From the NCBI GenBank assembly GCA_016218085.1, contig JACREY010000021.1:62001-126000 (forward strand): a stretch of 64,000 nucleotides of DNA. The letters are read 5' to 3'. A program made the translations under genes and the position numbers. Shown one piece after another: positions 8,871-9,539 of this stretch. This DNA is from Ignavibacteriota bacterium. Its GTDB lineage: Bacteria; Bacteroidota; Ignavibacteria; Tepidaquicellales; Tepidaquicellaceae. How positions within the stretch are numbered: the first letter of the stretch is position 1; each line of letters opens with the position of its first letter. The notes beneath the pieces are model-generated. The model saw only the letters and a list, made by a program, of their open reading frames with translations, had not been told where the DNA came from and did not search any database.

Positions 8871-8918
8871 GCTAAGGAGGGTGGAACTCCTGATTTCTCT
8901 GATGAACATCGGGATTTA
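8871..8918 (-). pseudogene. Decayed tRNA-Ala 3'-half copy A
   Basis: On the minus strand this matches the T arm and 3' acceptor strand of the intact tRNA-Ala at 9466-9539 (GGAGTTCCACCCTCCTTAGC). In place of the anticodon arm it has a palindrome-like CCCGATGTTCATC. The 5' half of the tRNA and the 3' terminal TCCA are absent. It is the most diverged of three copies. Confidence 0.6.
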
Positions 8919-8942
8919 ATATAAAATGAGTTTTAAAAGCGA

Positions 8943-8990
8943 GATCCCCGCTTGATCCCGTTTTAAATCATAACGGGACGCGGGGATGAC
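8943..8990. repeat. Nested palindromic repeat (GATCCCCGC ... GCGGGGATGAC)
   Basis: The outer arms ATCCCCGC/GCGGGGAT enclose a second inverted repeat with arms CCCGTT/AACGGG. The same outer element, without the inner one, recurs at 63945-63973 inside a coding sequence. This is an interspersed REP-like element. Confidence 0.75.
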
Positions 8991-9060
8991 ATACGTATTG
9001 GAATACAATATATTATAAAAAAATTCAAATATTTAGATAATTTTATTTAATTAAGTATTC

Positions 9061-9134
9061 TGCATAAATATTACCGGCTAAAGCCATTTTTAATAGCAAT
9101 TTTTCCACGACCTAAAGGTCGTGGCTATTGAGCG
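9061..9134. repeat. REP-like double-palindrome unit, copy 1
   Basis: Two TAAA-centred palindromes, GGCTAAAGCC and CCACGACCTAAAGGTCGTGG, are separated by about 20 AT-rich bases and followed by CTATTGAGC. A second copy lies at 9255-9327, about 193 bases further on, with few differences. Paired palindromes of this kind are typical of REP/BIME elements mobilised by REP-associated transposases (known elsewhere; no such transposase is in this window). Confidence 0.8.
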
Positions 9135-9143
9135 AAAAGAAAA

Positions 9144-9167
9144 AACCCGATAATTACTTATCGGGTT
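9144..9167 (-). terminator. Terminator hairpin after tRNA relic B
   Basis: AACCCGATAA pairs perfectly with TTATCGGGTT around TTAC, followed on the minus strand by a run of T. It follows tRNA relic B in the way the 9414-9449 hairpin follows the intact tRNA. Confidence 0.75.
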
Positions 9168-9172
9168 ATTTG

Positions 9173-9228
9173 TGGAGCTAAGGAGGGTCGAACCGGTGAC
9201 CTTCCCGATGACATCGGAGCGCTTTCGT
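9173..9228 (-). pseudogene. Decayed tRNA-Ala 3'-half copy B
   Basis: The minus strand carries GTTCGACCCTCCTTAGCTCC exactly as in the 3' end of the intact tRNA-Ala. The 5' strand of the T stem is changed (ACCGG, which cannot pair with CTCCT), and the anticodon arm is replaced by a CCGATG/CATCGG palindrome. There is no D arm or 5' acceptor strand, so no functional tRNA can form. Confidence 0.75.
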
Positions 9229-9254
9229 GAAATGGGTAATAAAAAAAAGTGTAC

Positions 9255-9327
9255 TGCTTAAATATTAACGGCTAAAGCCATTTTTAATTGCAACTTTTCC
9301 ACGACCTAAAGGTCGTGGCTATTGAGC
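9255..9327. repeat. REP-like double-palindrome unit, copy 2
   Basis: Second copy of the unit at 9061-9134. Together with the flanking tRNA relic it forms a tandem duplication of roughly 190 bases. Confidence 0.8.
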
Positions 9328-9356
9328 AAAAAAAACCGCATTAAGCGAGTTAAATG

Positions 9357-9413
9357 TGGAGCTAAGGAGGGTCGAACTGGTGACCTCTCCGATGAACATC
9401 GGAGCGCCTTCGT
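9357..9413 (-). pseudogene. Decayed tRNA-Ala 3'-half copy C
   Basis: This is the copy closest to the intact tRNA. The T loop and 3' acceptor strand through the discriminator base match the real gene. The T-stem 5' strand is ACCAG and no longer pairs, and the anticodon arm is a CTCCGA/TCGGAG palindrome with a 6-base loop. A decayed terminator (9329-9350) follows on the minus strand. Confidence 0.75.
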
Positions 9414-9449
9414 AAAAAAAAAACGTTACCAAGCAGGAGCTTGGTAACG
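9414..9449 (-). terminator. Terminator of tRNA-Ala, built from a CGTT...AACG palindrome
   Basis: CGTTACCAAGC pairs perfectly (11 bp) with GCTTGGTAACG around a 4-base loop and is followed on the minus strand by ten T. It belongs to the same palindrome family as 36171-36200 and 36224-36274. Confidence 0.85.
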
Positions 9450-9465
9450 AGATTAATTAATATTG

Positions 9466-9539
9466 TGGAGCTAAGGAGGGTCGAACTCCTGACCTCTTGA
9501 ATGCCATTCAAGCGCTCTACCAAACTGAGCTATAGCCCC
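9466..9539 (-). tRNA. tRNA-Ala (anticodon GGC)
   Basis: The 74-nt gene folds as a full cloverleaf. The acceptor GGGGCTA pairs with TAGCTCC (one G-U pair), the D arm has AGCTCAGTTTGGTAGAGC, the anticodon arm is CTTGA-ATGGCAT-TCAAG with anticodon GGC, and the T arm is AGGAG-TTCGACC-CTCCT. The discriminator base is A and no CCA is encoded. A strong terminator follows. It reads GCC/GCU alanine codons. Confidence 0.96.

Follow-up and report, generated by a model that had tools for sequence, protein, structure and literature searches.

The window, the 64,000-nucleotide stretch of Ignavibacteriota DNA analyzed here, contains an intact tRNA-Ala(GGC) gene on the reverse strand (9465–9539; called by ARAGORN and matched by Rfam RF00005 at 64.8 bits), followed on its 3' side by a strong reverse-strand intrinsic terminator with an 11-bp stem and a T10 tract (9424–9449). 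Downstream of the gene, on the same strand, lie three relics of it, C, B and A, separated by 109–306 nt; B and C are nearly intact and A is weak. Relic C (9356–9407) covers tRNA-Ala positions 25–75, from the D stem to the 3' end, with the palindrome CTCCGATGTTCATCGGAG (9387–9404) in place of the anticodon arm, after which the tRNA-Ala sequence is picked up again at position 43. Relic B (9172–9223) covers positions 24–75 with the palindrome TCCGATGTCATCGGGA (9203–9218) in place of the arm, and a strong intrinsic terminator follows on its 3' side (9144–9167, reverse strand). Relic A (8870–8914) retains a weak match to positions 43–71, preceded by the palindrome remnant TCCCGATGTTCATCAGAGA. An 89-nt hairpin repeat that is dispersed in the genome lies between C and B (9247–9335), and a second copy, 91% identical, is found 3' of B (9053–9141). 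The C and B units, which include this repeat internally, are 83% identical across 181 nt and represent a tandem duplication. Another hairpin repeat dispersed in this genome lies within the relic array (8931–8990), and the gene directly downstream of relic A (6938–8584) codes for a DUF6600 protein whose core is rich in WY/YG and whose tail is rich in Asn/Lys.

A first-pass annotation had described the relics as decayed copies of the tRNA-Ala 3' half beside the intact gene. Three such copies are real, but B and C exceed 3' halves, starting in the D stem (AGCG/GCG) at about position 24. The T loop and 3' acceptor strand, said to be kept in all three, are identical to the tRNA through the 3' end in B and C and are weaker in A, and the exchange of the anticodon arm for a palindrome is seen in each. 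T-stem pairing, described as lost throughout, is indeed lost in B (ACCGG) and C (ACCAG), but A still pairs (AGGAG/CTCCT). The tRNA, B and C had each been assigned a terminator; those 3' of the tRNA and B are strong, but C has only a short, weak hairpin. By chance, only about one of 48 tRNAs would have a partial copy of itself within 1.2 kb. A dispersed, mobile repeat was considered as an explanation and rejected, as no copies were found away from tRNA-Ala in the 3.3-Mb genome, whose only matches are the three relics and the tRNA itself.

Palindromes and partial tRNA copies in the same genome

The palindrome CCGATG..CATCGG occurs at two sites in the window, compared with 0.00 expected, and at five in the whole genome. 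It was rejected as a dispersed element, as these five sites are its only ones and the three others are terminator-like, lying between poly-A and poly-T. Palindrome letters are retained as TCCCGATG and TCCCGATGTTCATC in relic A and as CATCGGGA in relic B. The letters kept in A, B and C point to a single ancestral palindrome of the TCCCGA..TCGGGA type, with the form TCCCGATGTTCATCGGGA, from which all three may derive. The TCCCGAT..ATCGGGA family has 15 sites in the genome, five of them at tRNAs, and the TCCGCC..GGCGGA family has 45, about four at tRNAs and most elsewhere. Because some of the palindromes come from such dispersed families, they may be borrowed or could be secondary insertions. The relics resemble REP-like dispersed palindromes in that similar palindrome letters recur in the genome, but no such dispersal is seen for the tRNA copies. 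A foreign tRNA was rejected as donor of the arm in B and C, as the CTCCG/CGGAG anticodon stem is found in no tRNA of this genome and in no tRNA-Ala of a relative.

Partial cognate copies on the same strand and within 1.2 kb accompany 13 of the 48 distinct tRNA genes of this genome, compared with 0.96 expected from non-cognate tRNAs; Thr-GGT and Trp are counted through the Gly(TCC) copy of a tRNA cluster that they share, which leaves about 11 independent loci. The scan of the 48 genes revealed no opposite-strand partial cognate copies within the same distance. Most of the copies have a palindrome in or beside an arm, as in ATCGCG-TCCCGATGTTTTGAATCGGGA-AGGT of the tRNA-Pro copy, GGTGG-TCCCGATGTATCGGGA-TGAGAGT of the tRNA-Leu(GAG) copy and AGTCA-TCCCGATTCCATCGGGA of the tRNA-Gly copy. 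At the Gly, Pro and Leu loci the copies lie upstream of the intact tRNA, and tRNA-Ser(gga) has three copies spaced about 91 nt apart. The first-pass suggestion of a tandem-duplicated tRNA locus with palindromes fits the anatomy, both in the similarity of the C and B units and in the similar copies at other tRNAs. Separately, a 30-nt exact copy of the 3' end of tRNA-Arg ACG, 636 nt downstream of that gene (L197, 3096–3125), is palindrome-free and may be an att site.

GIY-YIG nuclease genes at tRNA loci

At other loci such copies are accompanied by a GIY-YIG nuclease gene, a feature that the first-pass annotation missed. In the same genome, a small PF01541 GIY-YIG ORF separates the intact tRNA from palindrome-bearing copies at tRNA-Asp (L200) and tRNA-Cys (L026/L203), and tRNA-Asp has two of these ORFs, one upstream, with an in-frame TAG, and one downstream. 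The ORF is absent at most loci of this genome that have copies, and no GIY-YIG ORF or remnant was found at the window tRNA-Ala or near the relics. Sixty loci were drawn from the PF01541 hits listed in 59 relatives. For a 49-locus sample from ten genomes, most listed hits were taken blind to their neighbors, and loci chosen for a nearby tRNA or palindrome were not counted; 21 of the 49 have a tRNA no more than 400 bp away, compared with a chance estimate of about 1.5%, and all of those linked are on the same strand. A scan of a GTDB genome collection placed 52 of 80 loci no more than 400 bp from a tRNA, and every one of the 52 is on the tRNA strand, although its queries were the two tRNA-linked proteins and favor their kin, so that this proportion is no rate for GIY-YIG genes overall. 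The 80 loci span Ignavibacteria, Bacteroidota, Patescibacteria, Omnitrophota, Elusimicrobia, Nitrospirota and others, and no nuclease relatives were found on viral contigs.

Around these tRNAs, palindromes flanked by cognate-tRNA 8-mers number 128, compared with a mean of 23.4 and a maximum of 29 in 20 draws with random non-cognate tRNAs. The most regular swap is that of the anticodon arm, with the left edge at about tRNA position 25–28 and the right edge at about 43–46, and is seen in Pro, Val, Thr, Ile, Gln, Gly, Met and Ala tRNAs. In tRNA-Asp it is the T arm that is swapped (51 to 60), and other tRNAs have a D or T loop interrupted by the palindrome. In a GIY-YIG tree of 152 rows and 83 columns, built by a quick search and containing many weak forks, tRNA linkage changes 21 times compared with 48 when shuffled (minimum 40), and isotype changes 41 times compared with 69 (minimum 63). 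The nearest tree neighbor sits at the same isotype for 57 of 90 linked proteins, with 6.2 expected, a pattern that fits inheritance of the nuclease along target-specific lines.

Comparisons among relatives reveal both occupied and empty sites. First, the upstream flank of tRNA-Ala meets G1 of the intact tRNA directly in G026 and G028, whereas in G034 the homologous flank (86–88% identical) meets G1 of an altered copy, and 367 nt containing a GIY-YIG ORF lead to the intact tRNA-Ala. The order in G034, namely flank, GGGGCTGTAGCTCAGATGG, nested palindrome and GGAGAGTGCTTGAATG, whose ATG opens the GIY-YIG ORF, is that of an upstream-type cassette at tRNA-Ala in a genus other than that of the window. 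Second, a downstream type occurs in L299 (Ignavibacteriaceae) and L323 (Nitrospirae), where the intact tRNA-Ala is followed by the ORF and then by a copy that starts at the D arm and has its anticodon arm exchanged; the L299 copy reads GAGCG-TCCCGATTGAAAATCGGGA-AGGTCAGCGGTTC, with AGGTCA following the palindrome, and has the layout of relic B. Third, at tRNA-Asp within one genus, a downstream cassette is present in G027, G031 and G035 and absent from several relatives. Presence/absence polymorphism is therefore seen in relatives, at tRNA-Ala (G034 versus G026/G028) and at tRNA-Asp, and not at the window locus itself. At the tRNA-Asp of G033, the ORF is reduced to about 11 codons and is followed by a palindrome-bearing copy, with like terminators after the tRNA and the relic. 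This decayed cassette provides a route by which an ORF-less relic such as B or C can arise. In the G034 cassette (L052), the GIY-YIG start codon also overlaps the anticodon region of the tRNA copy, GCTTGAATG.

Comparison of these loci shows that such cassettes bring a full or partial second tRNA copy, in which a palindrome takes the place of the anticodon arm (or the D or T arm) or interrupts it, and that many of them have a small, same-strand GIY-YIG nuclease ORF separating this altered copy from the intact gene.

Origin of the window relics

The window relics have the same-strand partial cognate copy and the palindrome-swapped arm; the GIY-YIG ORF, which is found in many members of the class and not in all, is absent. 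Their membership in this class of palindrome-marked tRNA-copy cassettes is well supported. Relics A, B and C are probably what is left, after decay, loss of the ORF and tandem duplication, of a SegB-like GIY-YIG cassette that homes in tRNA genes and is of a type widespread in bacterial chromosomes. The downstream form consists of the intact tRNA, a terminator, the ORF, an altered 3' copy and a second terminator, and deletion of the ORF would generate the arrangement in the window. The nuclease would cut the tRNA gene, and repair from a cassette-bearing copy would amount to intronless homing as in phage SegB; the same breaks may drive tandem duplication, giving rise to units C and B. The arm swap may serve to disarm the spare copy, so that it no longer works as a tRNA, is no longer cut or no longer offers the homology through which recombination could delete the cassette. 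Several observations count against the cassette origin. The window tRNA-Ala has neither the ORF nor a remnant of it; the ORF is missing at most copy loci of this genome, and copies may thus arise without a nuclease; the same-genus relative G001 has a different, att-like tRNA-Ala relic, so that cassette loss at the window locus is indicated only indirectly; the palindromes belong in part to dispersed families; and the intact tRNA of the donor retains a normal anticodon arm and would need some means of escaping the cut.

Among tested systems phage SegB comes closest: this free-standing homing endonuclease of the GIY-YIG type cuts inside tRNA genes and drives tandem amplification of the tRNA together with segB (PMC13096335). 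The motif reported for it, RAWTSGAAC (PMC13096335), has the reverse complement GTTCSAWTY, which appears to resemble the T-loop sequence of tRNA genes. Free-standing GIY-YIG homing endonucleases are found in T4/T6 phages (PMC13096335, PMC2988022). The phage SegB-type systems and the chromosomal cassettes have in common small GIY-YIG genes adjoining tRNA genes of many isotypes. However, the SegB-type genes described are those of phages, whereas the cassette genes lie on bacterial contigs, code for about 80–100 aa and come with palindrome-bearing cognate copies. SegB-like systems also have a GIY-YIG gene, which the window locus lacks, although the ORFs at tRNA-Asp and tRNA-Cys of the same genome match PF01541. 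In the literature searched, with subscription journals and preprints outside its scope, no description of palindrome-swapped tRNA copies with GIY-YIG genes was found; the work that did turn up concerned phage SegB and integrase-derived tRNA fragments.

The strongest rival is a plain tandem duplication of the tRNA 3' end with its terminator, in which dispersed palindromes arrived later and no nuclease took part. The 3' repeats of the E. coli tyrT operon (rtT RNA) are a precedent, being tandem, downstream of the tRNA and provided with a tRNA 3' end in each repeat; the window relics share with them tandem copies of a tRNA 3' end downstream of the tRNA. To our knowledge, no palindrome-swapped arm occurs in the tyrT repeats, and no rtT match was found in the window, where the tRNA is the sole Rfam match at the gathering threshold. 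The C and B units, as a repeated unit that holds an internal dispersed repeat, agree with simple duplication, as do the three tRNA-Ser(gga) copies, the genome-wide dispersal of the TCCGCC..GGCGGA palindromes and the lack of an ORF with most copies in this genome. Simple duplication does not lead one to expect a swap at the same arm positions across many tRNAs and phyla, nor the strong linkage of GIY-YIG ORFs to tRNAs, and a similar relic is produced by one decayed cassette, that of G033. It is a rather unlikely origin.

tRNA genes are usually viewed as landing sites of large integrase elements, and the first-pass annotation had offered attachment-site scars as a second interpretation, with successive integrated elements using the tRNA 3' end, here considered as tyrosine-integrase elements. 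tRNA-Ala(GGC) is indeed an integration target in relatives, where 3' halves beginning at GAATGGCATTC are found in L089, L097, L098, L100 and L105; these att-type halves start at the anticodon loop and retain the 3' anticodon strand. In L098, from another genus, a tyrosine-recombinase-like ORF (2495–3457) lies beside such a half, at about 3572, that starts in the anticodon loop, making this a true integrase site at the same tRNA, and G001, of the same genus as the window, carries an att-type tRNA-Ala 3' half as well. However, B and C have neither the anticodon-loop start nor the 3' anticodon strand kept in att copies, their T-stem 5' strand differs and D-stem sequence lies upstream. No integrase or island is present at the window locus, where the neighboring genes code for DUF6600, LprI and SIS proteins, and copies upstream of the intact Gly, Pro and Leu tRNAs are a misfit for 3'-end integration. 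The tRNA sites at which integrative elements attach (for a review, PMC9897764) are alike in having a partial copy adjoining an intact tRNA, but differ from the copies described here in the integrase or island, in the swapped anticodon arm and in the placement of copies on either side depending on the locus. Integrase scars are accordingly an improbable source of the relics, and that interpretation was set aside. The G001 half itself (L142, about 9687–9773) has its own terminator and the ACCAG T stem seen in relic C; after it come a pentose-phosphate operon and, further on, a homologue of the window gene at 6938–8584.

Functional tRNA-like RNAs, hairpin-armed copies co-transcribed with the tRNA as decoys or processing signals, would agree with the shared strand, the terminator of B and the hairpin kept at the anticodon position of C, but are very unlikely given that the T stem cannot form in B and C, the 5' acceptor strand is missing, A is decayed and the folds of A–C are no stabler than those of shuffled sequences.

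The decayed GIY-YIG cassette may have a wider meaning, put forward here tentatively. Chromosomal selfish elements that reside in tRNA genes across phyla would each code for a GIY-YIG protein of about 80–100 aa, isotype-specific by clade, and would duplicate part of the target tRNA while keeping the target intact; a palindrome in the anticodon, D or T arm would mark and disarm the spare copy as part of mobility or immunity, and the window relics would be fossils of such an element. The data point to a second, far smaller kind of parasite of tRNA genes, present in many phyla including cultured Bacteroidota, with homologues of the nuclease in Salegentibacter and Leeuwenhoekiella, and little remarked. 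If true, this would account for many annotated tRNA fragments and would provide a cellular counterpart of phage SegB, and the regularity with which a palindrome takes over one arm of the spare copy raises a question that can be tested.

Tandem arrays of altered copies are also found in relatives. In G026 (L045/L091, L143), partial tRNA-Ala copies with the palindrome TTTCCCAACGGGACGCCCTTGGCG in the T loop are arranged in tandem and reach the contig end, and a different contig of that genome opens with the same TTTCCCAACGGGACGCCCTTGGCG copy unit. Tandem tRNA-Ile copy arrays with a period of about 71–77 nt adjoin a GIY-YIG gene in L261 (G028), L266 (G026) and L293 (G035), and every anticodon arm in them is exchanged for TCCCGCCGCAGGCGGGA.
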